Positions 7,278 to 60,721 of a stretch of 64,000 nucleotides of DNA are shown here, piece after piece. A program made the translations under genes and the position numbers. Origin of the DNA: Nitrosomonadaceae bacterium (lineage in GTDB: Bacteria > Pseudomonadota > Gammaproteobacteria > Burkholderiales > Nitrosomonadaceae). The stretch is from positions 35,245 to 99,244 of the forward strand of contig CAKKRD010000014.1 in the NCBI GenBank assembly GCA_919902515.1, read 5' to 3'. Every line of letters begins with the position of its first letter. Within the stretch, counting starts at the first letter, position 1. The notes below the pieces were generated by a model, which was not told the origin of the DNA, searched no databases, and saw only the letters and a program-made list of their open reading frames with translations.

Positions 7278-7370
7278 AGGATAGAAATGAGCGGAATACC
7301 GGGACATTCTGCCATGTTTTTGCCATAAACAAAGGGGGGATAAGCTGGTAAAATGTTCAACCTCAAAAAT

Positions 7371-7463
7371 GGAGAGGTACCGAAGTGGCCATAACGGCGC
7401 TGACTCGAAATCAGATGGTCAGGGTAACCTGGCACGTGGGTTCGAATCCCACCCTCTCCGCCA
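7371..7463 (+). tRNA. tRNA-Ser (anticodon CGA)
   Basis: Acceptor GGAGAGG/CCTCTCC, long variable arm, ctgaCTCGAAAtcag anticodon arm, GGTTCGAATCC T-loop, encoded CCA. Confidence 0.95.
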
Positions 7464-7539
7464 AGTCAACATCCATACGGTTAAAGTAGCGCCTTTGGCC
7501 TCATCGTGGCCCATCATCCCGGTATAGCGACTGCCCCCT

Positions 7540-9045
7540 ATGTTCGAACAAGCCTTCAGAAACATCGACGACATCCTACGCAAGGAATCCGGCTGCACTA
7601 CCGAGCTGGATTACACCGAACAGACCTCGTGGCTGCTGTTCCTGAAATATATCGATGGGCTGGAACAGGACAAGACCACCGAAGCTGCGCTGGACGGGAA
7701 GAAATACGCTCACATCCTCGACCAGCCGTACCGCTGGGAAAGCTGGGCCGCGCCCAAGGGCAAGGACGGCAAGCTCGATCACAACAAAGCGCTGACTGGC
7801 GACGACCTGCGCGACTTCGTCAACCTCAAGCTCTTCCCCTACCTGCACGGCTTCAAGCAGAAGGCCAGCGGGCCGAACACCATCGAATACAAGATTGGCG
7901 AAATCTTCGGCGAGATCAAGAACAAGATTACCAGCGGCTACAACCTGCGCGAGATCATCGACCACATCGACGAGCTGCGCTTCCGCTCCCAGACCGAGAA
8001 GCACGAACTGTCACACCTCTACGAAGCCAAGATCAAGAACATGGGCAACGCCGGGCGCAATGGCGGCGAGTATTACACCCCACGCGCGCTCATACGTGCC
8101 ATCGTGCATGTGGTGAACCCCAAGATAGGCGAGAAAATATACGATGGGGCATGCGGCTCGGCGGGCTTCTTGTGCGAAGCGTACGAATACCTCAAGCAGA
8201 CCAATCCCAAGCGCACCACCGCGCAGGACCGCATCCTTCAGGAGCGCACCTTCTACGGCAAGGAAAAGAAGTCGCTGGCCTACGTCATGGCGATCATGAA
8301 CATGATCCTGCACGGCATCGACGCGCCCAACATCGTCCACACCAACACGCTCACCGAAAACCTCGCCGACATTCAGGAGAAGGACCGCTTTGATGTGGTA
8401 CTGGCCAATCCGCCCTTCGGCGGCAAGGAGCGCAAGGAAGTGCAGCAGAACTTCCCCATCCGCACCGGCGAGACCGCCTTCCTCTTCCTCCAGCACTTCA
8501 TCAAGATGCTCAAGGCCGGCGGGCGCGGCGGCGTGGTCATCAAGAACACCTTCCTCTCCAACACCGATAACGCCTCCGTGAGCCTGCGCAAGCTGCTGCT
8601 GGAAAGCTGCAACCTGCACACCGTGCTCGACTGCCCCGGCGGCACCTTCCAGGGTGCGGGCGTCAAAACCGTGGTGCTGTTCTTCGAGAAAGGTGCGCCC
8701 ACCCTTCGGCATGGCTCAGGGCAGGCACGCAAAGTCTGGTACTACCAGCTTGATCCAGGCCGCAACATGGGCAAGACCAACCCGCTCAATGACGCCGACC
8801 TCATCGAGTTTGTGAAGCTGCAAAAGACCTTCGCTGACTCGCCCAAGTCCTGGAGCGTGGACGCCAAGACCATCGACCCGACAACCTTCGATCTCTCCGT
8901 AAAGAACCCGAACGGTGGGGAGGTAATCGCGCACCGCAGCCCGGAGGCCATCATGGATGAGATCGCTGCGCTGGACGCTGAGAGTGCTGAGGTGTTGGAG
9001 AACATCAAGCATGCCCTGAGCCTGTCGAACGGGACGCTGCTGTGA
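7540..9045 (+). CDS. hsdM: Type I restriction-modification system methyltransferase subunit
   Basis: NAGRNGGEYYTPRALIRAIV, DGACGSAGFL, VLANPPFGGKE (NPPF) motifs. Confidence 0.95.
   Translation: MFEQAFRNIDDILRKESGCTTELDYTEQTSWLLFLKYIDGLEQDKTTEAALDGKKYAHILDQPYRWESWAAPKGKDGKLDHNKALTGDDLRDFVNLKLFPYLHGFKQKASGPNTIEYKIGEIFGEIKNKITSGYNLREIIDHIDELRFRSQTEKHELSHLYEAKIKNMGNAGRNGGEYYTPRALIRAIVHVVNPKIGEKIYDGACGSAGFLCEAYEYLKQTNPKRTTAQDRILQERTFYGKEKKSLAYVMAIMNMILHGIDAPNIVHTNTLTENLADIQEKDRFDVVLANPPFGGKERKEVQQNFPIRTGETAFLFLQHFIKMLKAGGRGGVVIKNTFLSNTDNASVSLRKLLLESCNLHTVLDCPGGTFQGAGVKTVVLFFEKGAPTLRHGSGQARKVWYYQLDPGRNMGKTNPLNDADLIEFVKLQKTFADSPKSWSVDAKTIDPTTFDLSVKNPNGGEVIAHRSPEAIMDEIAALDAESAEVLENIKHALSLSNGTLL
8703..8727 (+). 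repeat. REP-like repeat inside hsdM coding sequence
   Basis: ccttcggcatggctcagggcaggca, encoding LRHGSGQA. Confidence 0.75.
9010..9035 (-). repeat. REP-like repeat at the extreme 3' end of hsdM
   Basis: catgccctgagcctgtcgaacgggac. Confidence 0.75.
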
Positions 9046-9064
9046 AAAACCCTGCCTTCTTGCT

Positions 9065-9183
9065 CGTCATTCCCTGTCACCCGCGCGAAAGCGGGGGGAA
9101 TGCGGGAACCCAGAAATCCGACAAAAACACCCCCGTCATTCCCCGTCACCCTCGCGAAGGCGGGGGGCAGGCGGGAATCCAGC
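9065..9183. repeat. Two tandem copies of a GC-rich palindromic repeat (cgtcattcc...gcgaaagcggg...gggaayccag)
   Basis: Copies at about 9065-9113 and 9134-9183. Confidence 0.85.
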
Positions 9184-9211
9184 AATTAAAAAATGTGATA
9201 ATGGTTTTCCT

Positions 9212-9676
9212 ATGAAAAGTCCTGCTGTTTACATGCTTGCGAGCGGGCAAAATGGCACGCTCTATATCGGCGTAACCTCCGATCTCATCAAGCGGGTCTG
9301 GCAGCATAGGGAAAGCGTGGTCGATGGGTTTACCAAAAAATATAGCGTGAAAATACTGGTGTGGTATGAGCAGCATGAAACCATGGACAGTGCCATCTGC
9401 AAAGAAAAAGCCATGAAAAAATGGCTGCGGAAATGGAAGCTCGCAACGATTGAAAAGACCAATCCACATTGGCTCGATTTGTGGCCTGAAATAACCGGAG
9501 AAGCTCCCTCCCCCATCATTCCCGCATATGCGGGAATCCAGTCATCCGGCAAAAACACTTACGTCGCTCCCTGTCACCCTCGCGAAAGCGGGAGGAATGC
9601 GGGAACCCAGCAAACTGATAACGATCTGGATTCCCGCCTGCGCGGGAATGACGGTTCTTTGGGTGGTGCGCGATGA
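9212..9676 (+). CDS. GIY-YIG nuclease family protein with repeat-encoded C-terminal tail
   Basis: AVYMLASGQNGTLYIGVTSDLIKRVWQH GIY-YIG core; tail SPIIPAYAGIQ / CHPRESGRNAGTQ / DSRLRGNDG is translated repeat. Confidence 0.88.
   Translation: MKSPAVYMLASGQNGTLYIGVTSDLIKRVWQHRESVVDGFTKKYSVKILVWYEQHETMDSAICKEKAMKKWLRKWKLATIEKTNPHWLDLWPEITGEAPSPIIPAYAGIQSSGKNTYVAPCHPRESGRNAGTQQTDNDLDSRLRGNDGSLGGAR
9513..9654. repeat. Three copies of the same GC-rich palindromic repeat, last one inverted
   Basis: catcattcccgcatatgcgggaatccag; cgtcgctccctgtcaccctcgcgaaagcgggaggaatgcgggaacccag; ctggattcccgcctgcgcgggaatgacgg. Confidence 0.85.
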
Positions 9677-10890
9677 AGGCAGGATGGCAGACCAAGACGC
9701 TGGGCGAAGTGTGCCAGATCAAGCCGCCGAAAAGCGAAGCCCGCGACCGGCTCGCCGCCGATGGACTGGTCTCGTTTCTGCCGATGGAAAACATGGGCAT
9801 CGGCGAGAAGTTTGTGCGGGCGACTCAAGCGAAACCGCTCTCCGCAGTCGTGGGAAGTTACACCTACTTCGCGGACGGTGATGTCCTGTTGGCAAAAATC
9901 ACACCTTGCTTCGAGAACGGAAAACTCGGGATTGCGGAAGGGCTGACCAATGGTATCGGCTTCGGGTCTAGCGAATACATTGTGTTCCGCCCCAACAAGA
10001 CGCTCAGCAAAGAATGGCTCTACTACTACCTGTCTCGCGAAACCTTCCGAGTCGAAGGCGCGGCGCGGATGTCGGGCGCTGTCGGGCACAAGCGTGTCTC
10101 GAAGGAGTTCATTGAAAGCTACCCGATTCCCGTTCCCCCGCTCCCCGAACAGCAGCGCATCGTCGACATCCTCGATGAAGCGTTTGACGGCATTGCCACT
10201 GCCAAAGCCAACGCCGCAAAGAACCTGCAAAATGCCCGCGCTCTGTTCGAAAGCCACCTCCAATCCGTCTTCACCCAACGCGGCGAAGGGTGGGTGGAGA
10301 AGCGGCTTGGGGATGTGGCAGAAAGTATGTCCACAGGCCCATTCGGAACAATGCTTCACAAGTCGGATTACGTTTCTGATGGCATTCCACTGGTAAACCC
10401 GATGAATATCGTAGAGTCAAAGATTGTTCCGTCGAGCAAAATGATGGTGAACGAAGAAACGAGAGATCGCCTGAGCAGCTATGTGCTCAAAACGAGAGAC
10501 ATAGTCATCGGGCGGCGGGGTGAGTTGGGGAGATGCGCGCTGGTAACTGAACGCGAAGCTGGATGGTTGTGCGGAACAGGATCGTTCTTCGTGCGACTTA
10601 AAAACTTGATGGATGGCAAGTTCTTCGTAGCATTTTTTGGTTCAGAACAATTCAAGGCAAGGCTTGAAGCAAATTCAGTGGGTACAACGATGAGCAGCTT
10701 GAATCACGGTATTCTGAACGAGTTACTCATCCCGGTTCCGCCAATTAAGGTGCAGAGAGTAATCATGGAACGAGTCAATAAACTCTTGTCCGAAACCCAA
10801 CGCCTCGAATCCCTCTACCAGCAGAAGCTCACCGCGCTCGACGCATTGAAAAAGTCGCTGCTGCACCAGGCTTTCAATGGGCAGTTGTGA
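9673..10890 (+). CDS. hsdS: Type I restriction-modification specificity subunit
   Basis: Two TRD halves with PIPVPPLPEQQRIVDILDEAF conserved region; ends ALKKSLLHQAFNGQL. Confidence 0.93.
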   Translation: MKAGWQTKTLGEVCQIKPPKSEARDRLAADGLVSFLPMENMGIGEKFVRATQAKPLSAVVGSYTYFADGDVLLAKITPCFENGKLGIAEGLTNGIGFGSSEYIVFRPNKTLSKEWLYYYLSRETFRVEGAARMSGAVGHKRVSKEFIESYPIPVPPLPEQQRIVDILDEAFDGIATAKANAAKNLQNARALFESHLQSVFTQRGEGWVEKRLGDVAESMSTGPFGTMLHKSDYVSDGIPLVNPMNIVESKIVPSSKMMVNEETRDRLSSYVLKTRDIVIGRRGELGRCALVTEREAGWLCGTGSFFVRLKNLMDGKFFVAFFGSEQFKARLEANSVGTTMSSLNHGILNELLIPVPPIKVQRVIMERVNKLLSETQRLESLYQQKLTALDALKKSLLHQAFNGQL

Positions 10891-43635: not shown

Positions 43636-45444
43636 CTACCCTGGGTCATGCGCCAATTGCAGCCGTGTCTGTTCTTCCTGCTGTTGCAATTCCCACATAT
43701 GGGCATAGGTGCCATTCGCCGCCAGCAGCTCCCGATGACTGCCGCGTTCGATGATGCTGCCCTTGTCCATTACCAGTATTTGATCGGCATCGGCGATGGT
43801 GGAGAGACGGTGAGCAATGGTGAGTGTGGTGCGATTTGCAGCGATGCGCTTCAGTTCTGCCTGTATGGCTTTTTCCGATTTTGAATCCAGCGCCGAGGTG
43901 GCCTCGTCAAAAATGAGTATCTTTGGTTTTTTCAGGATCGCTCGGGCGATGGCAACGCGCTGCTTTTCCCCGCCGGAAAGTTTCAGTCCGCGTTCGCCCA
44001 CAGTGGTTTCATATTTGTCCGGCAGACTCTCGATAAAATCGTGGATGTGTGCCGATCTGGCGGCTTCAAATATTTCCTCGCAGCTTGCATCGGGGCGCCC
44101 GTAAGCGATGTTGTAATAAATGCTGTCGTTGAACAGCACCGTGTCCTGCGGAACGATGCCAATGGCTGCCCGTAGGCTTTTCTGGGTGACATCGCGGATA
44201 TCTTGATCGTTTATCAGAATACGGCCAGCGGACACATCATAAAAGCGGAACAGCAAGCGCGCCAGCGTGGATTTTCCCGACCCGCTATGCCCAACCACCG
44301 CCACATTGCAACCAGCGGGAATATCAAAGCTCACATCAAACAGAATCTGGCGATTTGGGTCGTAGCTGAAATTCACTTTTTCGAAGCGAATGGCTGCCTC
44401 TCCCGCAACGAGATCAGTGGTGCCCGGTTTATCCTTGATCTCCTCGTTTTCCGCCAGCAGGCTGAACATTTTTTCCATGTCCGCCAGTGAATGCTTGATT
44501 TCACGATAAACGAAGCCGAGGAAATGCAGCGGCATATACAGTTGCAGCATGAAGGCATTGACCAGCACCAGATCGCCCAGTGACATGGTGCCTTTGACCA
44601 CGCCGTCAGCCGCCAGCAGCATCAGCAGAGTCACACCGATTGCAATGATGGCGCTCTGGCCGGCGTTGAGTGCGGCGAGTGAGGTCTGGTTGCGCACTGC
44701 CGCAATCTCCCATTTCTGCATGTGCTCATCGTAGCGCCGCGCCTCCCATGCTTCATTGCCGAAATATTTTACCGTCTCATAGTTCAGCAGGCTGTCGATG
44801 GCGCGAGTATTGGCTTTCGAGTCCATATCGTTCATCGTGCGACGGAAGATCATGCGCCATTCGGTAATGAACAGGGTGAACACGATGTAGGCTACCAGTG
44901 TTACAAAAATGATCACCGAGAACCAGATGTCATATTTGGAAAGAAGAATGGCCGCCACCAGTCCGATTTCCAACAGTGTCGGCAGGATGTTGAACAGCAT
45001 GAAGTTGAGCAGGAAAGAAATGCCGCGCGTGCCTCGTTCGATGTCGCGCGACACGCCACCGGTCTGACGTTCCAGGTGGAAGCGCAGCGACAGCGCATGC
45101 AGATGACCGAATACCCTGATGGCCACCCGCCGGATCGCCCGCTGCGTAACCTTGGCAAATACTGCATCGCGCAATTCGCCGAACAGCGTGCTGCACAGAC
45201 GCAATGCCCCGTACCCCACCAGCAGTACTACCGGCAGCACCAGCATGGCCCGCGGCTGGTCGAGCGCATCGACGATTTCCTTCAGCACCAGCGGCACCGC
45301 GACGCTGGCAAGCTTGGCTATCACCAGCAGTATCAATGCCAATGCCACCCTGCCCTTGAACTCCCACAGGTAAGGCAGCAGGGTGCGGATGGTTTGCCAG
45401 TCATTGCGACTGGCTGTAGGTTTGTCCAAACGGGTGGGACGCAT
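43636..45444 (-). CDS. ATM1/HMT-type ABC exporter (TM + ATPase)
   Basis: VAVVGHSGSGKSTLARLLFRFYD, LSGGEKQRVAIARAILKKPKILIFDEATSALD. Confidence 0.92.
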   Translation of the reverse strand: MRPTRLDKPTASRNDWQTIRTLLPYLWEFKGRVALALILLVIAKLASVAVPLVLKEIVDALDQPRAMLVLPVVLLVGYGALRLCSTLFGELRDAVFAKVTQRAIRRVAIRVFGHLHALSLRFHLERQTGGVSRDIERGTRGISFLLNFMLFNILPTLLEIGLVAAILLSKYDIWFSVIIFVTLVAYIVFTLFITEWRMIFRRTMNDMDSKANTRAIDSLLNYETVKYFGNEAWEARRYDEHMQKWEIAAVRNQTSLAALNAGQSAIIAIGVTLLMLLAADGVVKGTMSLGDLVLVNAFMLQLYMPLHFLGFVYREIKHSLADMEKMFSLLAENEEIKDKPGTTDLVAGEAAIRFEKVNFSYDPNRQILFDVSFDIPAGCNVAVVGHSGSGKSTLARLLFRFYDVSAGRILINDQDIRDVTQKSLRAAIGIVPQDTVLFNDSIYYNIAYGRPDASCEEIFEAARSAHIHDFIESLPDKYETTVGERGLKLSGGEKQRVAIARAILKKPKILIFDEATSALDSKSEKAIQAELKRIAANRTTLTIAHRLSTIADADQILVMDKGSIIERGSHRELLAANGTYAHMWELQQQEEQTRLQLAHDPG

Positions 45445-45535
45445 CAGTTTATTTTCGCGAAAACGTTGGGTATGCCGGTTTCTTGCCTATCGCTATACAA
45501 TTTGCACAGCCAGCTTTCTGAAGGACCGGCAGGAA

Positions 45536-45745
45536 AGGAAATCACCCGCAACCTGACACGCTGCTCACCCGGGGTGCGATGCGCGATCTGTTTATTCCCA
45601 TTCGTACGATGCGATACGGGCCATTCTGAATGCAGAAGGGTTTGTGTTTCTGGATGGAGCGCGCAAGTGCTGGATTGACATTGCCTGGCGCAACTTTCGC
45701 TCCCAAGCGCGCACTTCCCTGGATCAGCCGCTAGAGCGCGGCACA
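45536..45745 (+). pseudogene. Decayed paralogue of the 48759-49166 gene
   Basis: Reads RDLFIPIRTMRY..(frameshift)..AILNAEGFVFLDGARKCWIDIAWRNFRSQARTSLDQPLERGT; start codon lost, about 75-bp internal deletion, 1-nt frameshift. Confidence 0.85.
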
Positions 45746-46873
45746 CTATGCTAGCGACAGTTTGATTTCCAGCGCCAGCCGCAACGCAGCTTCAGTGGTT
45801 CCGGCGAGCACGGTATAGTGACCCATTTTTCGTCCGGGCCGGGCATCGAGCTTGCCGTATAAGTGCAGTTTGACATGCGGATGCCGCAACACCTCTTCCC
45901 ACTTCGGTTCTCCCCGCCGCCACAAATCGCCCAGCAAATTTACCATCACCGCCGCTCCCTGCATCGCGGTGGCACCCAGCGGCAGGCCACAGAGTACTCG
46001 CACTTGTTGTTCGAACTGGGAAGTGACGCACGCATCCAGCGTGTAATGACCACTGTTATGCGGGCGCGGTGCAATCTCGTTTACCAGCAGGCGGCCATCG
46101 GCCAGTACAAAAAATTCCACGCATAACACGCCGTGGTAGTCGAGCTTCTCGGCAACCCGGATCGCGGTGTCGCATGCATCCCGGACAATCGCCCGGGATA
46201 TTCTGGCGGGAACGATGCTGACATCAAGAATGCCGTGGCGATGACGGTTTTCCGCTGCTGGGAATGCAGCCACCTCACCATCAAATCCGCGCGCCACCAC
46301 GACCGAAACTTCGTTATCCAGCGGCAGCAACTGTTCCAGTACGCACGGCTCCCGCTTCATGTCGGCGAATGCCGCATCAAGCTCCGCCGCGTTGCTGATC
46401 CGCGCCTGACCCTTGCCGTCGTAACCGAGGCGACTTACTTTGAGAATGCCGGGAAACAGCTCCGGATGCGTTTGCGGCAGTACTTCACTGGAGTCCTGGA
46501 CCACTGCAAACGGTGTAACCGCAAAACCGTTGGCCACTAGAAACTGTTTCTCCAGAATGCGATCCTGGGTAATGGCCACGCTGCCCGCAGGGGGGCTGAC
46601 GACACAATGTTCAGCCAGAATTCTAAGCGACTCTGCCGGCACGTTTTCGAATTCGGTGGTAACACCAGCGCAGGTGGAGGCTAGCTCACGCAAAGCATCG
46701 CTATCAAGGTAATCGGCTCGCAAATGCCGGTCGGCCACGTTGCCTGCGGGGCTGTCGTTAGCCGGATCCAGCACAGTGACGCGGTAGCCCATGCTTTGCG
46801 CCGCCATGGCGAACATGCGCCCGAGCTGGCCGCCGCCCAGGAGGCCCAGCATCGCTCCTGGCATGATGCTCAT
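45746..46873 (-). CDS. purK: N5-carboxyaminoimidazole ribonucleotide synthase
   Basis: [38 protein letters not shown]. Confidence 0.95.
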
Positions 46874-47361
46874 AACTTTGGCAGTGTCATCGCCTTGACC
46901 TTTTCTGCCTGCATTTTGCGGAAGGCCTCAAGCTGCTCGGCCATCGTCGGATCGGAGAGCGCCAGCAGGGCAATAGCAAACAAACCGGCGTTTGCCGCCC
47001 CCGCCTCGCCGATGGCGAAAGTGGCGACGGGAATACCTTTGGGCATCTGCACGATGGAAAGAAGAGAATCGAGGCCTTGCAGCTGCTTGGAAGTAACCGG
47101 TACACCCAGCACCGGCAGGGTGGTTTTGGCGGCGATCATCCCGGGGAGGTGTGCCGCGCCACCGGCGCCAGCGATAATGCATTTGAGTCCGCGCTCGATT
47201 GCGGTATCCGCATACTCGAACATACGGTCCGGGGTGCGATGGGCGGAAACCACCTGAGCTTCATAAGGTACGCCAAAATCCTTCAATATACTCGCCGCAT
47301 GCTGCATTACCTCCCAGTCGCTGTTGCTGCCCATGATGATGCCGACTAACGGTGTTTTCAT
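46870..47361 (-). CDS. purE: N5-carboxyaminoimidazole ribonucleotide mutase
   Basis: [41 protein letters not shown]. Confidence 0.96.
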
Positions 47362-47377
47362 TTAACGCCTCGCTGGT

Positions 47378-47842
47378 TTAGTTGCGGAGACTGGTATCCT
47401 TGGAGGCTGATTTCTCCATATCCTCCAGGTAGGGATAGCGTACATGCCCATAACGTATGACTAGTACCGCCAGCGCAACAAGTACTATCGAAGCGGATAC
47501 GCCCAGTAGCCGGATATTGTCCATTTCCTTGATATCCACAATCACATAGCGCGCCATCGCCACCATTGCGATATAAAGGGGGAACCGTACAGGCAGCTTG
47601 CCGGACTCGAAATACAACCCCACCATGGTCAGGATTTCCAGGTAGAGAAACATCAGCAGCAAATCCGCCAGAGTAACTCTGGCGTTGTCGATCATCAGCA
47701 TAGTTTCCTGGTAACCGGCGAATATCGTGGCGAGAGCGATAACGACTAACCCCACGTCTTCAAAGAAGTGTAGTGTCTGACGGGAATAACGGGCGGCGCG
47801 TTGATTTGGCATTTTATTGTCAGGAATTGTCAGAGTAAGCAA
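47378..47842 (-). CDS. PsiE-like phosphate-starvation-inducible membrane protein
   Basis: Multi-TM; LLLMFLYLEILTMVGLYFESGKLPVRFPLYIAMVAMARYVIVD. Confidence 0.82.
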   Translation of the reverse strand: MLTLTIPDNKMPNQRAARYSRQTLHFFEDVGLVVIALATIFAGYQETMLMIDNARVTLADLLLMFLYLEILTMVGLYFESGKLPVRFPLYIAMVAMARYVIVDIKEMDNIRLLGVSASIVLVALAVLVIRYGHVRYPYLEDMEKSASKDTSLRN

Positions 47843-47920
47843 CCACCTATAATACTACCTGTTCCAGATTACAACTCCATCACAAATGCAAATAGATACG
47901 ATAACTGGATAGATCAGCTC

Positions 47921-48682
47921 CTAGCCATTCAGCCTGGCCAGCATCCCCGCATCCACCCATCCCCTGCCATGCGCATTTCCCGCCAGCACGGCAAACGGTT
48001 GTGCCGGCTCACCCAGATCCGACAGCACCAGCGTAGCGCCGCTGAAGTCCTGCCCACGGGTGTAATCGCTGACTGTGATCACTGTGTCCAGGCCCGCTGC
48101 CAGCGCAGCTTTCAATCCGTTCTCGGAATCTTCCAGCGCGATGCAATGCTGCGCCGGCAGTCCAAGCTGTTCCAGCACCCACAGATAAATATCCGGCGCG
48201 GGCTTTTTGCCGGGGACGATATCACCCGCACCGATGACGTCAAACCAGTCCGGAGAATCCTCTCCCAAAGTGGACTTTAACAGCGCAATCACATTCTCTG
48301 GCGAGGTAGTGGTAGCAATGGCAATTTTTATGTTTGCTGCGCGCAACTCATGGATCAGGCGGGCAACGCCGGGACGCAGCGGAATTCCGCCGCGCTCAAG
48401 CAAGGCTACAAAATACCTGGTTTTGGCCTGGTGCAAAGCGGCGATCCAGTCATCCAGCCCGCTCCTGCTCAATTCGTCCGGGAGATATTTTTCCAGGTAA
48501 TGACGAATGCGCTCCTTGCCGCCGGTAATCGTCAGCAGCTCTCCATAAAGCTCGGCATCCCAGTCCCAGGCAAGACCAAACTCCGCAAATGCGGCATTGA
48601 AGGCAAGACGATGGCCGTCACGCTCGGTATCGGCCAGAGTGCCGTCAACGTCAAAGATCACCGTGCGTAGTGAATTGTCCAT
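47921..48682 (-). CDS. cbbY: HAD phosphatase, CbbY-like
   Basis: VIFDVDGTLADTERDGHRLAFNAAFAEFGLAWDWDAELYGELLTITGGKERI. Confidence 0.85.
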   Translation of the reverse strand: MDNSLRTVIFDVDGTLADTERDGHRLAFNAAFAEFGLAWDWDAELYGELLTITGGKERIRHYLEKYLPDELSRSGLDDWIAALHQAKTRYFVALLERGGIPLRPGVARLIHELRAANIKIAIATTTSPENVIALLKSTLGEDSPDWFDVIGAGDIVPGKKPAPDIYLWVLEQLGLPAQHCIALEDSENGLKAALAAGLDTVITVSDYTRGQDFSGATLVLSDLGEPAQPFAVLAGNAHGRGWVDAGMLARLNG

Positions 48683-48758: not shown

Positions 48759-49166
48759 ATGGAAATCACCTGCTATCGCGACCAGGAAATAAGCCATGAG
48801 CCCCGCTTTCTACCGGCTGCCACCTACAACCTGGCAATTACGCTGCTTGCCCGGAGTGAGACGCGCAACCTGTTTGTTCCCATTCGCGCGATGCAATACC
48901 TGGCCATCTTGGATGCAGAAGAGTTTGTATTCCTGGATGGAGAGCGCAAATGCTGGATTGACATCGCCTGGCGCAACTTTCGATCCTCAGCGCGCACTTC
49001 CCTTGAGCAACCGGTAGAGTACGACGTCGTTTATTACCGTCACGGCCAGGCGGCCATCATGACACGCCTGCAAACAGAGTTTCCGCGTGCGCTGCAGGCT
49101 TTGGCCAGCAAGGCGAAGCTCGATGGCCCGGCGCGGGTAATCAAGTTTCCTGCGCCTCGGGCTTAG
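48759..49166 (+). CDS. Uncharacterised CBB-locus-associated protein (member 1)
   Basis: ORF resembling 50928-51290 and the fossil at 45536-45745. Confidence 0.8.
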   Translation: MEITCYRDQEISHEPRFLPAATYNLAITLLARSETRNLFVPIRAMQYLAILDAEEFVFLDGERKCWIDIAWRNFRSSARTSLEQPVEYDVVYYRHGQAAIMTRLQTEFPRALQALASKAKLDGPARVIKFPAPRA

Positions 49167-49171
49167 GTTCC

Positions 49172-49474
49172 TTAGTCGTCTTCTCCCAGTTCCGCATCCC
49201 AGCCCTCACTCTTGGCGGAAACAACCGCCTGCGCATAGAGTTGTGCATGCCGCCGCTGCAGATCCTCCGGCAACCGGCTGGGCAGATGCGCATAGGGTTC
49301 CCAGGCGGCATACACCTGCTCATACAGGTTCTGCATTTGTGACCCATCCCATCCGGCGCATGTTTCTGACTCAGGCAGAATACCGAACACCCAGGCATCG
49401 CGCACCATGCGGCCGAGGTGTGTCAGCCCCCCATTTTCGTCTTGGTCGATTCCTGCATAATGTTGTTTCATCAT
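49172..49474 (-). CDS. Hypothetical, CbbN-like by position
   Basis: ATGA overlap with a fossil cbbO C-terminus (HVNRLPDKLPVLYAGLTR*). Confidence 0.65.
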   Translation of the reverse strand: MMKQHYAGIDQDENGGLTHLGRMVRDAWVFGILPESETCAGWDGSQMQNLYEQVYAAWEPYAHLPSRLPEDLQRRHAQLYAQAVVSAKSEGWDAELGEDD

Positions 49475-49527
49475 CGCGTCAGCCCCGCATAAAGTACCGG
49501 CAACTTATCCGGCAATCGATTCACATG
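49472..49527 (-). pseudogene. Fossil 3' end of cbbO
   Basis: Translates HVNRLPDKLPVLYAGLTR* vs intact CbbO end DHVERLPEKLPLLYAGLTR*; 40/47 nt identical to 55600-55646. Confidence 0.85.
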
Positions 49528-49643
49528 CACCCTCATTCATAAGTCCGAATCCAGAAAAAAGTCTGCTGGAAAGCTCTACCGGCGTGTAATTTTCCTCTGC
49601 TTGCAGGATGTCGTAGTGATAATGAGACATGGGAACCGCCCAA

Positions 49644-50900
49644 TTATAAGGAATTCTCCCCATTGTAGATTATACGAGATGAAATGGTGCTAGCTGATCC
49701 AGCCATATCTGGTATCGCTGCGGGTTGGTCTGCAACAAAACTGATGCTGATTTTATCATGTGTGATCGGCTGAAAGCATTGGTTGGTAAAAGCGCGATAC
49801 TCAGGATGGGTGTGATAGCTCTCAATGACGTTGGCGTGCGCAAGCTGTACCAGCCAGCAGAAGCGGTATCGCGCTGGTTCGGCAATCGCCCAGCCAGCGA
49901 AAACGCGGCGTACACCGGGGATAGCACTTAAAGACGCGCGTCCTTGCGCTATCATGGCTTCCACCTGTTGCGTACTCACGTCTTCAGCGTTATAGATGAT
50001 GACATGCTCTACTGGTTGCCAAGGCCGGCACTGAATCAGAACCTCTGCCGCGCGTCCTGCCGACCCCCACAGGTGCATACAGAGTTTAATTTGCTCGCGC
50101 AGGCTATCTCTGACACCGCGCATCGTTTCGATATAGCCTTTGCCAGTGTCGGGCTGCAGATTGGAGCGAATTGTCCTGGCAGCGATATCGGATAATTCGG
50201 TGTAGCAGTTAATTTTAGCGATACCATTTAGAATCAATTTATGGTATTGCTCTTCGGTCAGTCCGCTACCGCCGTGCAGCACAAGCGGGATACCCAGCAT
50301 GTCATTGATGCGTTTCAAGCGCCCAAAATCCAGTTTAGTGCGACCCCGCTGGCGGCCATGCACCGTACCGATGGAGACCGCCAGACAGTCCACGCCCGTA
50401 CGCTCGGCATATGCTTTGGCCTCTTCTGCCGCAGTGTAAACACCCTCGCCGGGGTATTTGGCTGCGTTTTCACCCTCCCCACCGCCCACATACCCCAGCT
50501 CACCCTCTACGGCTGCGCCGCAGGCATGAGCCATATCTGCCACATGCCGGGTTTGAGCGATATTGACAGGAAATGACTCAAGCGAAGCATCCATCATCAC
50601 GCTATTGCAACCGAGATTAATTGCGCGCACGGCGGAGGCATGACTTGTCCCATGATCGGAATGGATGGCGATCGGTACCGAGGCGTTGCGTGCGGCATGT
50701 TCAACTGCCGGCATGATGAGTCCGAAGTCAAAATGCTCAAAGTGTGATTCAACAAGATTGAGAATGACGGGCGAACGACAGTGTTCTGCTGCCGTAACAA
50801 TCGCCTCCAAAAAATCAAGATTTACCAAGCCGAATCCACCTACCGCATAGTTATTATGGTAGGCATGATTCAGCATATCCCGCATATCCACGAGTGGCAT
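49644..50900 (-). CDS. Class II fructose-bisphosphate aldolase fused to C-terminal Dabb-like domain
   Basis: IAIHSDHGTSHASAVRAINLGCNSVMMDAS, LVLHGGSGLTEEQ; C-term VEHVIIYNAEDVSTQQVEAMIAQ..IPGVRRVFAGW..ESYHTHPEYRAFTNQCFQPITHDKISISF. Confidence 0.88.
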   Translation of the reverse strand: MPLVDMRDMLNHAYHNNYAVGGFGLVNLDFLEAIVTAAEHCRSPVILNLVESHFEHFDFGLIMPAVEHAARNASVPIAIHSDHGTSHASAVRAINLGCNSVMMDASLESFPVNIAQTRHVADMAHACGAAVEGELGYVGGGEGENAAKYPGEGVYTAAEEAKAYAERTGVDCLAVSIGTVHGRQRGRTKLDFGRLKRINDMLGIPLVLHGGSGLTEEQYHKLILNGIAKINCYTELSDIAARTIRSNLQPDTGKGYIETMRGVRDSLREQIKLCMHLWGSAGRAAEVLIQCRPWQPVEHVIIYNAEDVSTQQVEAMIAQGRASLSAIPGVRRVFAGWAIAEPARYRFCWLVQLAHANVIESYHTHPEYRAFTNQCFQPITHDKISISFVADQPAAIPDMAGSASTISSRIIYNGENSL

Positions 50901-50927
50901 GTTTTTCCCTATATCCTTTGCTGTGCT

Positions 50928-51290
50928 TTACACTTTTTCACACCCATGAATCAAGATCTGGTTGAGCGCTTGATGCAGGTCATCCAGTGCTGAGCCCATG
51001 ATGAGACCAGCGCAGTTATGATAAAGCCATAATTCACATGTGACGGGCTGATACAGATTATTGCGCGCGTGAATTTGAAATTCGCGCCATGCCATTACCG
51101 GTTGGTCATCGGCAAAACTGTCAACACATAACCAGATGGCGCTGTTAAGGATTACTACCAAACCGCGATGCAGCGGCAGTGGTACACGCAAGGGGCTGCC
51201 TAGTCGCAACAAGGCGAGGCGTCCCCGGTTATAACAGGCCGCTTCAATCTTCTTGGGAAAAATGCGCAAGGGGAGAGTCAACGTATCCAT
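50928..51290 (-). CDS. Uncharacterised CBB-locus-associated protein (member 2)
   Basis: AWREFQIHARNNLYQPVTCELWLYHNCAGLIMG aligns to AWRNFRSSARTSLEQPVEYDVVYYRHGQAAIMT of 48759 ORF; start refined. Confidence 0.75.
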   Translation of the reverse strand: MDTLTLPLRIFPKKIEAACYNRGRLALLRLGSPLRVPLPLHRGLVVILNSAIWLCVDSFADDQPVMAWREFQIHARNNLYQPVTCELWLYHNCAGLIMGSALDDLHQALNQILIHGCEKV

Positions 51291-51318: not shown

Positions 51319-52290
51319 CTATTTTTTTGTTTCCGTATCGGTATTGGATTCACCATCGAGCTTGCCTTCGAGGAACACGCGGCTGGCTAGAATATCTTCC
51401 GCTTCAAGCGTCATGAGATCAATTTTGGCCAATGATTTCTTCGCTCCCTCAAACAAGCGATTGGCTTGGCGCAGCCGCGCCCGGTCAAGGGCGTTGCGAA
51501 TAGAGCGCGCGTTGGCGAAATGCTCCAGCTTCATGCGTAACCGGATATAGTCGTCGAATGCTTTTTCGCCCTCGGGACTGAAGCGGTAATTCTGCGCCGC
51601 CAGCATCAGTTTGGCGATTGCAAGCAATTCATCGGCGCTATAGTCGGGAAAGTCGATGTGGTGCGCGATACGCGAACGCATGCCAGGATTGCTATGGAAG
51701 AACTTTTCCATCCTGTCTTTATAGCCGGCCAGGATCACGACTAGGTCATCGCGGTTATTCTCCATCGTTTGCAGCAGGATTTCTATGGATTCAGCGCCAT
51801 AATCGCGTTCATTCTCGGGTTTATAGAGGTAATAGGCCTCATCGATAAACAGCACTCCCCCCATCGCTTTCTTCAGTACTTCTTTGGTCTTGGGGGCGGT
51901 ATGGCCAATATATTGACCCACCAGATCGTCGCGGGTGACGGAAACAAGGTGTCCTTCACGGACATAACCCAAGCGGTGTAAGATTTCGGCCATGCGTAGC
52001 GCTACAGTAGTCTTGCCGGTACCAGGGTTGCCGGTAAAACACATGTGTAGACTAGGTGCCCCGGCGGTCAGGCCCAATTTCTTGCGCACGCGGTCGACGA
52101 GCAATAGCGCCGCCGTCTCGCGGATGCGGGTTTTTACGGGTTTCAAGCCGATCAATTCACGATCAAGCTTATCCAGCACTTCCTTGATGTTGGAAGCGCG
52201 GAATTCTGCATCCAGATCAACCGGACTGCTATCGGAAGGGGTAAGTTCTTTCGTATGTTTTTTCACGTTTGATCCATACAATAAAGCCAT
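51319..52290 (-). CDS. cbbX: Red-type RuBisCO activase (AAA+)
   Basis: [74 protein letters not shown]; start refined. Confidence 0.95.
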
Positions 52291-52498: not shown

Positions 52499-52933
52499 TT
52501 AATACCGCTCACCCTCCGGCTTGTCGGTCGCATAGGAGTGGATAGTGTAGCTAATACTCCGGCCTGCCCCTTCTTGCCGCACCACACCAAAGCCCGGCTC
52601 TGTCTTCGGCCGATTGACAATATATGACATAGTTGGGCTCTCCACCCCGCGCGTCGAGTTAAACGCGGTTACGCGGATATAGTGGTTCGGGAACGTCTTG
52701 CGGCAGCTGTTGATTTCCATCAGAATCCCAGCAGGGTCCTTCAGGTCAAACATCGGGTTGCCAAACATTTCCCAATAGGTATTGCGTGGATGTGGGTCAT
52801 CGGTGTACTCGATACCTATCGCCCAGCCGTTCTTCAACGCATATTTGATTTGCGCCGAGATTTGCTTGTCCGTCAGCGGGGGCAGGAAAGAGAACTGACC
52901 TTGCGTGATACGATTTCCTACATTGGTCATCAT
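52499..52933 (-). CDS. cbbS: RuBisCO small subunit, red-type form IC
   Basis: ITQGQFSFLPPLTDKQISAQIKYALKNGWAIGIEYTDDPHPRNTYWEMFG. Confidence 0.96.
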   Translation of the reverse strand: MMTNVGNRITQGQFSFLPPLTDKQISAQIKYALKNGWAIGIEYTDDPHPRNTYWEMFGNPMFDLKDPAGILMEINSCRKTFPNHYIRVTAFNSTRGVESPTMSYIVNRPKTEPGFGVVRQEGAGRSISYTIHSYATDKPEGERY

Positions 52934-52955: not shown

Positions 52956-54539
<1,584 letters not shown>

Positions 54540-54623: not shown

Positions 54624-55616
54624 ATGCGTCATAGCACCTTGCGTCAACTTGAAGTTTTTGAAACCATTGCCCGTCTGGGAAGTTTTACACGCGCCGCAGA
54701 AGAGCTATTCTTGACTCAACCCACGGTGTCGATGCAAATCAAGAAATTAACCGATGCAGTCGGTTTGCCGCTGTTCGAGCAAGTTGGCAAGAAAATGTAT
54801 CTCACCGATGCCGGACGCGAGTTGCATCAAACCTGCCGCGGCATTTTCGAACACCTCACGCAGTTCGAGATGGTTGCGGCAGATATGAAAGGGCTGAAGG
54901 CTGGCAAACTGCGGCTTGCGGTGGTGACTACCGCAAAATATTTCGCGCCGCGCTTGCTGGGGATGTTTTGCCAGCAATATCCGGGCGTCGAGGTCTCGCT
55001 CAAAGTGTCCAACCGTGCGCGCGTATTGGAACGCTTGGCAGACAATCAGGACGATCTCTATATCTTGGGTCAGCCGCCGGAGGAAGTGGATGCGGTGGCA
55101 CAGGCGTTCTTGGAGAATTCGCTGGTCGTGCTTGCACCGGTCAATCATCCGCTTGCCAATAAGAAAAGAATCACGCTTAGGCGTATAGCCGAGGAACCAT
55201 TTTTATCGCGCGAACCCGGTTCCGGCACGCGCATTGCGACGGAACGTATTTTCTCTGAACAGGGTTTGAAATTAAGAATACGAATGGAATTAGGAAGTAA
55301 TGAGGCAATCAAGCAGGCCATTATTGGCGGCCTGGGCATTTCAGTCTTGTCACGCCACACATTGGCGCTGGATGCGCCCATGGGACAACTCGCTGTGCTC
55401 GATGTGCAGGGCTTTCCGATTGAGCGGCAGTGGTACTACGCCTACCCATCGGGGAAACAGTTGTCTATTGTGGCGCAGGCATTTTTGGGTTATTTACAGC
55501 AAGCGCCGCAGCTTTTGGTTGAAGTACCTTGCCACCACGCGAATACTGGACACTGCCCGCTTCTCCCCAATGGCAAGGATGGGACGACGTTAACGGGTAA
55601 GCCCCGCATAAAGTAA
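54624..55616 (+). CDS. cbbR: LysR-type regulator CbbR (form IC cluster)
   Basis: LRQLEVFETIARLGSFTRAAEELFLTQPTVSMQIKKL; divergent from cbbL. Confidence 0.93.
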   Translation: MRHSTLRQLEVFETIARLGSFTRAAEELFLTQPTVSMQIKKLTDAVGLPLFEQVGKKMYLTDAGRELHQTCRGIFEHLTQFEMVAADMKGLKAGKLRLAVVTTAKYFAPRLLGMFCQQYPGVEVSLKVSNRARVLERLADNQDDLYILGQPPEEVDAVAQAFLENSLVVLAPVNHPLANKKRITLRRIAEEPFLSREPGSGTRIATERIFSEQGLKLRIRMELGSNEAIKQAIIGGLGISVLSRHTLALDAPMGQLAVLDVQGFPIERQWYYAYPSGKQLSIVAQAFLGYLQQAPQLLVEVPCHHANTGHCPLLPNGKDGTTLTGKPRIK

Positions 55617-57917
55617 CGGCAATTTCTCCGGCAGCCGTTCCACATGATCCACTACCATATAATTCTTTGCGCCGAAAATACGAGACACGTATTGATCGGC
55701 GCGCGGGTCGAGGCTCATGCAATAAGTGACGACACCGGAACGGCCCGCTTCTTCCACAGCTTTCTTGGTGTCATAACGCAGGTACTGCGGGTCACGTACA
55801 TCCACATCCGCCGGCTCGCCGTCGGTGATCACCAGCAGCAGTTTTTTGGATGAGCGCTGCAGTTTGAGGTAATGGCTAGCGTGGCGGATGGCCGCGCCCA
55901 TCCGGGTGGAGAGTTGTCCGGTCATACCCGCCAGCCGGGCTTTGGATGCTTCATTGTAAGGCTGATCGAAATCCTTGTAGCGATAATACTCTACATCGTG
56001 GCGGCCATCAGAACAGAAACCATGGATGGCGAAAGGATCGCCAATTTTGTTGATTGCATTGGCCAGCAGTACGGTAGCCTGACGGGTGAGATCCAGCACC
56101 GAGAAATCCTGCCCCGCGACTTTCTCATTGGTGGATTCGGACAGGTCGAGCAGCACCAGTACCGAAATGTCGCGAATTTTCCTGACCGAGCGCATCATGA
56201 AGCGCGGATCGGGTTGCATCCCCATGCGCATGTCGATCATGGAAGAGATGGCGGCGTTAAGGTCGATCTCATCACCGTCTTCCAGTTTGCGGATGCGCTG
56301 CACGCCTTGTGGCTGCATCGCATCGAGCAGGAATTTCATGCGTGAAATCTCGCGCTTGTACTGCATGGCAATGTCGTCGATGAGTTGCGTATCGCCCGAT
56401 TTGGCGCGTTTCTCCTGCACCGTTACCCAGGCGGGGCGCTCAAGCTGAATCTGGTAATCCCATTCGGAATAATGATAAGGCTGCGATACCGGTTCCTTGC
56501 CTTCTGACTCATTGTAGGAAACGCCTGCGTCTTCATAGGGAAAGAATTCTGTTCCCATCACCCAGATTTCCTGTGCATCGTCGCCGGCACCTTCTACTTC
56601 GACCTCGTTGGCGAACTCCATCACATTGACATACTTGCGCACCTGTTTGGGTTCGTTATAGCCAGCGGACAGCGATTTTTCGAAATCGAATTCCTCAAAC
56701 TCCCAGAAATAGCGGTTGTCATCCAGATAGGGTGCCGTCAATTGATCGGTGCGCGGGTTGAAAGGAATTTTCTTGTCTTTAATCTTGTGGGCAAGCTGCA
56801 CACCGATTTCCCAGGATATGTGGTGGCTATCGAGTTTGTCCTGTACCCGAGCGAACAGCGTACGGCCATCGGCTACCCATGCATCATGGTCCTGATAGGA
56901 CGGATCAAGCAGCGCTCGCGCCAAACGGTTAAGGTAATCGCCGATGCTCGCGTTCATTTCCGGTGTAGCGCTGTGCAATGCTGCCCAGATCTGGCGCAGG
57001 CCGGGAAAGCGGCGGATCGAGAGCGCTTCGACGCGTGCGTCCTCAATCACCGCAATCACCGCCATCTGCAGGGGATTGAGTGCCTCGGCAGAAATGGGGG
57101 TTTTCGTTTCCACCAGGTGCGCGGCAGCGTGGGCTGCCGCCGCGCGATACACCTCGCTGGCAACGACATCGCCATGTGCGTCATAGGCATCTGGCAGGTG
57201 GATGAAATAGCCCTCGATAAAGGGCTGATAGCCTTCGCGCGTTTCGAAATCGCCGGAAGTCGGTTTCATGAAAAAATCCCGCGCCCACAATGCGCGCAGA
57301 TACATGTTGATACGGCGCTGCACATCCACGAACAGAGTACCCTTGCGTTCTCTCTGCAGCACCGCCAGCGATTCCTTGGAATCTAGGCCGAAATACTTGA
57401 TCTGTTCTTCATAATTTGTGCGGTGCGCATGCGCGCCCCACAATGCCCAGCGGCGCAGACCGCCCAGGGTCAGTTGTCCGAACAGCACATCCAGTTTGTC
57501 CAGCATGGGGCGTATACCGCGCGGTGCCTGTGCGATCAGGGTGTTGAGGAATTGCAGGTATTGCTGGAACAGTTGTGCGTCGCCTAGGCGTTTGGCTGCT
57601 GTGGGTGCAGTGGCGAGCACGAGTTCGATTACTGCGCCGGAGGTTCTTGAAGCCAGCATCAAAGCCGCCGTTGCAAGCTCACCCACGACATCCTCGCCCA
57701 CCTCTTTGGCCACCTCGGGGGCTTCATCGATCCAGGTATCCACCAGCCCGCGTCCGCGTCCCAAGCCACGCAACGCAGAGGCGCCTTTCAGGTAATTGTC
57801 CAGGCCGCGCGGGGAGAAGACCTTGGTGGCTTCCGGCCAGATGCCACGCAACAAGGCGATGGACTCGGGTTCCAGGTCTTCCAATAATTCTTTGTAGTCG
57901 TCGAGATTGACACTCAT
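55590..57917 (-). CDS. cbbO: RuBisCO activase-associated VWA protein
   Basis: VLVLLDLSESTNEKV MIDAS-like motif, 775 aa, adjacent to cbbQ. Confidence 0.94.
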   Translation of the reverse strand: MSVNLDDYKELLEDLEPESIALLRGIWPEATKVFSPRGLDNYLKGASALRGLGRGRGLVDTWIDEAPEVAKEVGEDVVGELATAALMLASRTSGAVIELVLATAPTAAKRLGDAQLFQQYLQFLNTLIAQAPRGIRPMLDKLDVLFGQLTLGGLRRWALWGAHAHRTNYEEQIKYFGLDSKESLAVLQRERKGTLFVDVQRRINMYLRALWARDFFMKPTSGDFETREGYQPFIEGYFIHLPDAYDAHGDVVASEVYRAAAAHAAAHLVETKTPISAEALNPLQMAVIAVIEDARVEALSIRRFPGLRQIWAALHSATPEMNASIGDYLNRLARALLDPSYQDHDAWVADGRTLFARVQDKLDSHHISWEIGVQLAHKIKDKKIPFNPRTDQLTAPYLDDNRYFWEFEEFDFEKSLSAGYNEPKQVRKYVNVMEFANEVEVEGAGDDAQEIWVMGTEFFPYEDAGVSYNESEGKEPVSQPYHYSEWDYQIQLERPAWVTVQEKRAKSGDTQLIDDIAMQYKREISRMKFLLDAMQPQGVQRIRKLEDGDEIDLNAAISSMIDMRMGMQPDPRFMMRSVRKIRDISVLVLLDLSESTNEKVAGQDFSVLDLTRQATVLLANAINKIGDPFAIHGFCSDGRHDVEYYRYKDFDQPYNEASKARLAGMTGQLSTRMGAAIRHASHYLKLQRSSKKLLLVITDGEPADVDVRDPQYLRYDTKKAVEEAGRSGVVTYCMSLDPRADQYVSRIFGAKNYMVVDHVERLPEKLPLLYAGLTR

Positions 57918-57980: not shown

Positions 57981-58784
57981 TCAGAAGAAGGTTGTCACGG
58001 TCGCATCCAGCGCATCGCGCATGTCAGGGTCATCGGTGATCGGACGTACCAACGCAACGCGGCAGGCAGCGTGCGCATTCACTCCCTTGGCGATCAGGCT
58101 GCCTGCGTAAATCAGCATACGCGTGGAAATACCTTCATCCAGGCCGTGTCCTTTGAGGTTGCGCGCACGCTCGGCGATCGAAACCAGTTTGTCGGCCACC
58201 GCTTCGCTCACCCCGGTTTCGTGCATTACGATTTCCGTTTCAGTGGCATGATCGGGATAATTGAAATCCATCGCGCCGAAGCGTTGCTTGGTCGATTGTT
58301 TCAGATCTTTCATCAGACTCTGGTAACCGGGGTTATACGAGATCACCAGTTGGAAGTCGGCGTGGGCGTGAATCAACTCGCCTTTCTTTTCCAGCGGCAA
58401 TACCCGCCTATTATCGGTCAGCGGGTGGATCACCACGGTCGTGTCCTGCCGCGCTTCAACCACCTCATCCAGATAGCAGATAGCGCCATAACGTGCAGCG
58501 ATGGCGAGAGGACCGTCCTGCCAGCGCGTACCCTGGGCATCGAGCAGGAAGCGGCCGACCAGGTCGGAGGCGGTCATGTCTTCGTTGCACGCCACGGTGA
58601 TCAACGGTCTCTTCAGCTTCCATGCCATGTATTCGACAAAACGGGTCTTGCCGCAACCGGTCGGGCCTTTGAGCATCATGGGCATGCGCACAGAATAGGC
58701 AGCTTCGTACAATTCCACTTCGTCGGCAACGGCACGATAGTAGGGTTCTGTGGTAACTCGGTACTGGTCGATGATATTGCTCAT
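57981..58784 (-). CDS. cbbQ: RuBisCO activase AAA+ ATPase
   Basis: [46 protein letters not shown]; start refined. Confidence 0.95.
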
Positions 58785-58877: not shown

Positions 58878-59234
58878 TTAAACGGTTTTGCCGCGGTAAA
58901 TCACCATGGCTGCACCCTGGGATTGGTTGAAATTGTTGTAACCAATCAGACGCACATGGTTGTTCGGGTTGGCTTTGTGGCAAGCTTCAGCTTCTGCCAG
59001 CACGTGGTCCACGTCGGTTTCGCCGAACATGGGTAGTTTCCACATGTACCAGTAGGAGTCCATCAGGTACTCCGGCTCGGTATGCTCGATCGCGGGGTTC
59101 CAGCCCTTGCTCACCAGATAGGTCACCTGCTTTCTGATATTTTCTTCAGTCATCGCAGGCAGGTAAGAGAAGGTTTCGAACTTGCGGCTAGCCGGATCGC
59201 TTACGCGCGATTTGTAATCCATCACTTCACTCAT
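58878..59234 (-). CDS. cbbS: RuBisCO small subunit, green-type form IA
   Basis: [38 protein letters not shown]. Confidence 0.96.
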
Positions 59235-59299: not shown

Positions 59300-60721
59300 T
59301 TACTTGTGGGCCACGTCCAGCTTGTCGACAGTGTCAAACTCGAACTTGATCTCTTTCCAGGTTTCCATGGCAATCTTCAGTTCGGGGCTATGGGCAGCGG
59401 CCTTGGTCAGGATATCCTTACCCGCTTTCTCAATCTCTACTCCCTGGTTACGCGCTTCCACACAGGCTTCCAGTGCGACACGATTGGCTGCGGCGCCAGC
59501 AGCATTGCCCCACGGATGACCCAGCGTACCACCACCGAATTGTAGACACGCATCATCGCCGAAGATGGCAACCAGCGCAGGCATGTGCCATACATGAATA
59601 CCGCCGGAAGCGACCGGGAACACGCCAGGCATGGAACCCCAGTCCTGGTCGAAGAACAGACCACGGCTGCGATCTTCCTTGACGAATTTGTCGCGCATGG
59701 TGTCAATCCAGCCCAGCGTCGCCTCACGATCGCCTTCCAGTTTGCCGACCACGGTACCCGAGTGCAGGTGATCGCCCCCGGACAAACGCAGGATTTTGGT
59801 CAACACGCGGAAATGTATACCATGGTGCGGATTGCGGTCGAGAACAGCGTGCATGGCGCGGTGAATGTGCAACAACATGCCATTGTTACGGCACCAGTTG
59901 GCCAGACCCGTGTTAGCGGTTAAACCGCCGGTCAAGTAGTCATGCATGATAATCGGTGCGCCCAATTCCTTGGCAAACTCGGCACGCTTGTACATTTCTT
60001 CCGGGGTTGGTGCGGTCACGTTAAGGTAGTGACCTTTGCGCTCGCCGGTTTCACGCTCGGCCTTTTGGCAAGCTTCCACCACGAATTCGAAACGATCACG
60101 CCAACGCATGAACGGCTGGCTATTGACGTTTTCGTCGTCCTTGGTTAAATCCAGACCGCCACGCAGGCATTCATACACGGCGCGGCCGTAGTTCTTGGCA
60201 GACAAACCCAGCTTGGGCTTGATAGTGCAACCCAACAGCGCGCGGCCATATTTGTTCAAGCGATCACGTTCCACCTGAATACCGGCGGGAGGGCCACCAC
60301 AAGTCTTCACATAAGCGATGGGGAAGCGTATATCTTCCAAACGCAGCGCGCGCAAGGCTTTGAAGCCGAACACGTTACCGACCAGCGAAGTCAGCACGTT
60401 AACCACGGAACCCTCTTCGAACAGGTCGATCGGGTAAGCCACGAAAGCATAGAAGCAGGTGTCATCGCCAGGTACGTCTTCGATGCGGTAAGCGCGGCCT
60501 TTGTAGTAGTCCAGATCGGTCAGCAGATCGGTCCACACCGTGGTCCAGGTACCGGTGGAAGATTCGGCAGCTACTGCAGCAGCCACTTCTTCACGGGGTA
60601 CACCCGCCTGCGGGGTAATCTTGAAACAGGCCAGGAGATCGGTAGCCAGCGGGGTGTAATCCGGCGTCCAATAGGTATGCCGGTATTCTTTTACACCGGC
60701 GTTATATGTTTTCACTGCCAT
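59300..60721 (-). CDS. cbbL: RuBisCO large subunit, green-type form IA
   Basis: [47 protein letters not shown]. Confidence 0.98.

Follow-up and report, generated by a model that had tools for sequence, protein, structure and literature searches.

The region analysed here, referred to as the window, is a stretch of 64,000 nucleotides from a Nitrosomonadaceae contig, and the host of this carbon-fixation region is an ammonia oxidiser. Two Rubisco systems are encoded in the window, namely a form IA system with cbbQ and cbbO and a form IC-like system with cbbX. The same region holds two short intact open reading frames (ORFs), here named P1 and P2, and a decayed duplicate of P1, as listed below.

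45536 to 45745, + strand: decayed P1 duplicate with lost start codon, internal deletion and in-frame TAG, adjoining an ABC transporter gene
47921 to 48682, - strand: HAD hydrolase that resembles CbbY by inspection, transcribed divergently from P1
48759 to 49166, + strand: P1, intact ORF of 135 aa, member of the form IA/CbbO-associated clade
49172 to 49474, - strand: CbbN-like ORF of 100 aa, without a Pfam or NCBIfam match, directly after cbbO in many relatives
49644 to 50900, - strand: class II fructose-bisphosphate aldolase (PF01116) with a C-terminal extension
50928 to 51290, - strand: P2, intact ORF of 120 aa, directly 3' of cbbX of the form IC system
51319 to 52290, - strand: cbbX, red-type Rubisco activase (TIGR02880, E = 5e-161; start estimated from the domain match)
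52499 to 52933, - strand: cbbS of the second Rubisco (form IC-like, CbbX-linked), from its translation and kept beside cbbX in relatives
52956 to 54431, - strand: cbbL of the second Rubisco (form IC-like), from its translation, start estimated
54624 to 55616, + strand: LysR-type regulator, CbbR-like, from its translation and related loci
55590 to 57917, - strand: cbbO, VWA partner of CbbQ in the form IA system, from CbbO searches and related loci
57981 to 58784, - strand: cbbQ, MoxR-type AAA+ protein of the form IA system, from its translation, start estimated
58878 to 59234, - strand: cbbS, form IA, from its translation and related loci
59300 to 60721, - strand: cbbL, form IA, from its translation and related loci

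The gene neighbours named in the original prediction are those found here, since P2 lies between cbbX and the class II aldolase and P1 is flanked by the divergent CbbY-like gene and by the CbbN-like ORF, the latter arranged tail to tail with P1 at a distance of 5 bp. The ATG of P2 is placed at 51290, 28 bp beyond the end of cbbX, whose stop is at 51319. Starting in frame at 51356 would give a longer ORF, but this overlaps cbbX and is without orthologue support. Scans for promoters and terminators around P1 and P2 remained at chance level.

P1 and P2 are homologous, with 28% identity over 102 aa (BLASTP, E = 2e-7). Profiles built from about 25 to 30 orthologues of each group detect the other group at E values of 1e-9 to 1e-5, and alignment of the two profiles with hhalign gives E = 1.7e-7, so that the lack of profile similarity which would have refuted the proposed relationship was not encountered. 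The decayed copy is real as well, matching P1 with 84% DNA identity over 180 bp (E = 7e-47) and also matching the region upstream of P1 (79 bp at 80%). No copies besides these three were detected in the genome to which the window belongs (1.88 Mb, 82% complete). The claim of three copies therefore stands in that all of them exist, but they are not three recent duplicates, only the decayed copy having been recently duplicated from P1. Both P1 and P2 are under purifying selection, with a dN/dS of about 0.1 when P1 is compared with its more distant orthologues and with few changes in P2.

A scan of named genomes placed the closest relatives of P1 in the Nitrosomonadaceae, where 96 of 127 genomes gave matches with an E-value limit of 0.01; cross-hits to P2 are part of this number. 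Across the order (300 genomes), P1 was found in 50 genomes and a CbbO with about 70% or more identity to that of the window in 51, including three in which its gene is split or runs off the contig. According to set membership tallied by hand, P1 and the form IA CbbO are both present in 48 genomes, one of them in 5 and neither in 247 (Fisher p = 2e-49). Three CbbO genomes are without P1, one of which (G367) has a divergent member after cbbO-cbbN, and two P1 genomes are without such a CbbO, one of which (G017) has a decayed cbbO piece nearby. On contig C6 of the latter genome, near 6162-9678, an intact P1 lies close to this decayed form IA-type cbbO, and a divergent cbbO is located elsewhere in the genome.

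In 80 named P1 loci, a CbbN-like gene was near P1 in 73 cases and cbbO was within 6 kb in 36; in most Nitrosomonas, the P1-cbbN pair is set apart from cbbO, P1 keeping just cbbN and the ABC transporter gene as neighbours. Among 29 Nitrosomonadaceae loci of P2, 28 have it immediately 3' of cbbX, the exception (L054) being near a contig end. All six genomes of the order with a P2 orthologue also have CbbX, while most of the roughly 30 CbbX genomes are without P2. The search of the order with P2 also returned divergent members in cbb surroundings (L101-L104), and at L102 the genes follow each other as cbbO, member, cbbN and carbonic anhydrase with overlapping gene ends. Searching plasmids with P2 and with the L102 member returned none.

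Some of the history of the locus can be read from relatives. P1 directly adjoins the ABC transporter gene in several of them, and in the window and two near relatives, G119 and G122, this site is occupied by the decayed copy. A purK-purE-psiE-HAD block (45444-48682 of the window), common to G119 and G122, separates the decayed from the intact P1. The position after cbbN, held by cbbO in other relatives, is taken by the form IC cluster in the window and in G119. This suggests that the purK-purE-psiE-HAD cassette was inserted together with the P1 duplication and that the form IC cluster came afterwards, an order of events that is inferred. In other genomes, too, the PsiE-like membrane protein encoded in this block (47378-47842, - strand) is repeatedly found in the vicinity of family members, FBPase and purE/purK.

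Neither P1 nor P2 matched Pfam or NCBIfam, and 21 diverse members searched against Pfam-A (E up to 1) and NCBIfam gave nothing credible, while a search of PDB sequences returned a single chance-level match. AlphaFold2 modelled both proteins with confidence (P1, pLDDT 86.4 and pTM 0.81; P2, pLDDT 89.4 and pTM 0.82, with two of its five models poor), and the predicted fold is the same in both, with the elements in the order E-E-H-E-E-E-E-E-H. The two models are not fully independent since the P2 alignment consists mostly of P1 rows. Foldseek comparison of both models with the PDB found no match at E up to 0.001, the best TM of about 0.36 being taken as no information; a very weak, non-significant similarity to helix-grip ligand-binding folds was seen.

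P1, P2 and the members found across the class match the combined profile, A7, and the core AWxxFxxxxRxxLxxPV. The sites conserved throughout the family are A, N, D, W, F, R, L, P and Y, and the residues common to both clades look structural. The P2-type clade has in addition two invariant Trp and, at neighbouring sites, a Cys (99%) and a His (95%), which are C85 and H91 in P2 (numbering from Met); neither is present in the P1 clade, where the sites hold Tyr and a variable residue. Family proteins are about 115 to 140 aa long, folded in the models and apparently soluble.

At the level of the class, the A7 profile found members in 75 of 274 Gammaproteobacteria genomes. A Rubisco large-subunit domain was present in 71 of the 74 family-positive genomes tested and in 25 of 80 sampled family-negative ones (p = 2e-18), a few of these 25 being counted on weak matches alone, possibly to Rubisco-like proteins. 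Of 90 members, 54 are located no more than 10 kb from a Rubisco large-subunit gene (cbbL or cbbM), where about 1% is expected by chance, and 49 of these 54 are on the same strand as that gene. Together with the P1/CbbO co-occurrence described above, these figures bear out the expected link of homologues to cbb genes. When 80 larger loci were read, the recurrent placements were cbbL-cbbS-cbbQ-cbbO-member, cbbL-cbbS-cbbX-member and member-cbbM, with cbbO-member and cbbX-member spacings often of 0 to 4 bp or with overlapping genes. Genomes with two Rubiscos often have one member per system (L231, L232, L225 with L226, L228, L263). Genes for CbbY-like HAD proteins adjoin members or are near them in the window, L236 and L104.

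When only genomes with Rubisco are considered, the family is associated with form I-type CbbO (47 of 56 versus 5 of 21, p = 1e-6). CbbO is not a universal partner, since several genomes with the family and Rubisco have no detected CbbO (G488, G494, G544, G617, G621, G622 and G462, CbbX not being covered); in G488 and in G617 the family is represented by two unlinked members. A distance correlation that picked CbbO as the partner (partial r 0.34-0.45) was discarded, and is not used as evidence here, because the signal was gone once seven loci were removed. Individual loci also deserve mention: in L269 and L295 a tandem pair of family members follows cbbO, and at L277 (6012-6332, + strand) a form IC-like cbbS, with neither cbbL nor cbbX in the neighbourhood, directly precedes the member and appears to be the relic of a form IC operon.

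A quick maximum-likelihood tree was calculated for 108 members from only 124 columns, and many of its forks are unresolved. P1 falls in one main clade of the family and P2 in the other, and both clades span the class. A recent local duplication of P1 as the origin of P2 is thereby ruled out, and P1 and P2 are thus old, deep paralogues, each linked to a Rubisco system of its own. On the tree, partner labels cluster far more strongly than in shuffles (22 changes versus 54), with the convergent P1 group forming one clade and the cbbX-linked members needing four changes. This clustering supports specificity for a partner but does not prove it, because relatedness alone clusters labels.

Membership of the family in the Rubisco/Calvin-cycle system is, in our view, nearly certain. 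The Calvin-cycle accessory role, first suggested by repeated occurrence around a single locus, is now supported by genome co-occurrence and gene neighbourhood, and the link is stronger than the initial evidence for it. Since in CO2-fixing Gammaproteobacteria a member is usually found beside the genes of Rubisco and of its repair machines, the family is probably a missed Rubisco helper. Whether it acts more broadly, as a hitherto unrecognised factor that assists Rubisco in proteobacterial autotrophs in general, has a novel fold and serves forms IA, IC and II and two evolutionarily distinct activases, is in our judgement evenly balanced. The reading that we prefer, tentatively and with slightly less than even confidence, is that of an undescribed Rubisco accessory family most likely aiding activase-driven Rubisco repair, its mechanism being inferred. 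It is favoured because Rubisco is common to the contexts, the activase is the commonest immediate neighbour and form I-type CbbO is associated with the family. A Rubisco operon tends to have a member of its own, P1-type with form IA and CbbQO and P2-type after the form IC cbbX, further copies being located after cbbO or before cbbM. On this reading the protein most likely binds Rubisco or its activase and, as adaptor, recruiter or tuner, assists the activase-driven removal of inhibitory sugar phosphates, while CbbY-like phosphatases clear away the released product; both the binding and a role in repair rather than assembly are inferences. The many CbbX genomes of the order without the family count against the repair reading, as do the genomes with Rubisco but no detected CbbO and about 20 members with no recognised Calvin gene within about 6 kb. 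Furthermore, purified Acidithiobacillus ferrooxidans CbbQO acts on Rubisco in vitro with no such protein added (PMC4660213), and the family protein is therefore not essential for activase action there.

Several other explanations have to be weighed against activase-driven repair. The family could provide a Rubisco assembly or folding factor, similar in function to RbcX, Raf1 or acRAF, that keeps hold of large or small subunits while the holoenzyme is being made. Such a role would agree with Rubisco being the sole partner common to the CbbX, CbbO and cbbM contexts, with its presence in the family-positive genomes without CbbO and with the lack of a catalytic residue conserved across both clades. 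We deem this rather unlikely, however, as the family is absent from many Rubisco genomes and its usual site is after the activase gene, not after cbbS. A role as a small domain that senses metabolites or regulates Calvin-cycle flux, binding a sugar phosphate or nucleotide and controlling CbbR, aldolase or other cbb proteins in a CP12-like manner, would explain why seven members that have no Rubisco close by are found next to tkt, gap, pgk, pyk or fba (aldolase) genes and why others adjoin cbbR, FBPase or aldolase, and the helix-grip resemblance points the same way; yet most members are placed with Rubisco and activase, the fold similarities are not significant, with TM at most about 0.36, and such a role appears improbable.

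The near-invariant Cys and His of the CbbO/CbbX-linked clade, together with its two Trp, leave room for a small enzyme acting, for example, on Rubisco inhibitors or products, but both residues are missing from the P1 clade and the family-wide conserved sites look structural, which makes catalysis very doubtful. Lastly, P1 is convergent with the cbb operon rather than inside it and in most Nitrosomonas is detached from cbbO, as would be expected of a passenger gene travelling with cbb operons without any Calvin-cycle role. We find this scarcely credible, given that the genome-level link holds even where the genes are unlinked, that three different Rubisco contexts and operon-like overlaps are involved, that the clades track the partner and that selection is purifying.

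Several small accessory proteins are encoded with Rubisco, among them RbcX, Raf1 and acRAF. The present family is likewise small and Rubisco-associated, but none of the 21 members matched any curated Pfam family, and to our knowledge the predicted order of elements fits none of the three, no direct structure alignment having been made. With the AAA+ Rubisco activases CbbX and CbbQO, the family shares operons, often with overlapping genes, and genome co-occurrence; unlike CbbX, CbbQ and CbbO, P1 and P2 are without an AAA+ or VWA domain, are only 120 to 135 aa long and show no sequence relation that we could find. CP12 is short, largely disordered and equipped with cysteine pairs. Our family is also small and linked to the Calvin cycle but is modelled as folded, and P1 has 2 Cys, with no conserved pair in its clade.

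The family, which was initially called undescribed, can keep that name as far as Pfam, NCBIfam, PDB sequences and the open literature are concerned, excluding nr, UniProt and subscription papers: we found no curated family, solved structure or open paper on it, and nothing in the open literature on cbbN or on the gene after cbbX. It may already stand in nr or UniProt as hypothetical proteins, since neither was covered by the search. A genome-wide screen for Calvin-cycle genes could not have detected it because that screen ranked Pfam domains and EC numbers (PMC7895386) and the family has no Pfam model. A lead for an earlier sighting is hyp3 (ACK80740.1), a hypothetical protein heading the co-transcribed cbb3 operon of A. 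ferrooxidans with cbbT, cbbK, pykA and cbbA (PMC2942843), as members L276, L279, L282, L283, L301 and L304 have a similar context; the likeness is one of context only, without sequence comparison. Rubisco accessory proteins determine whether foreign or improved Rubiscos function in new hosts, and a family present in about a quarter of the sampled gammaproteobacterial genomes, nearly always with Rubisco, could be a missing part in Rubisco transplants.

Two neighbouring genes of the window show features of their own. The CbbN-like protein is a conserved partner of form IA cbb operons, where its gene is located after cbbO or intervenes between cbbS and cbbQ (weak matches). The aldolase (49644-50900, - strand) is extended at its C-terminus by about 110 aa, which match Dabb (PF07876) only weakly and below the cut-off of that model, and aldolases adjoining other family members align across most of this extension.
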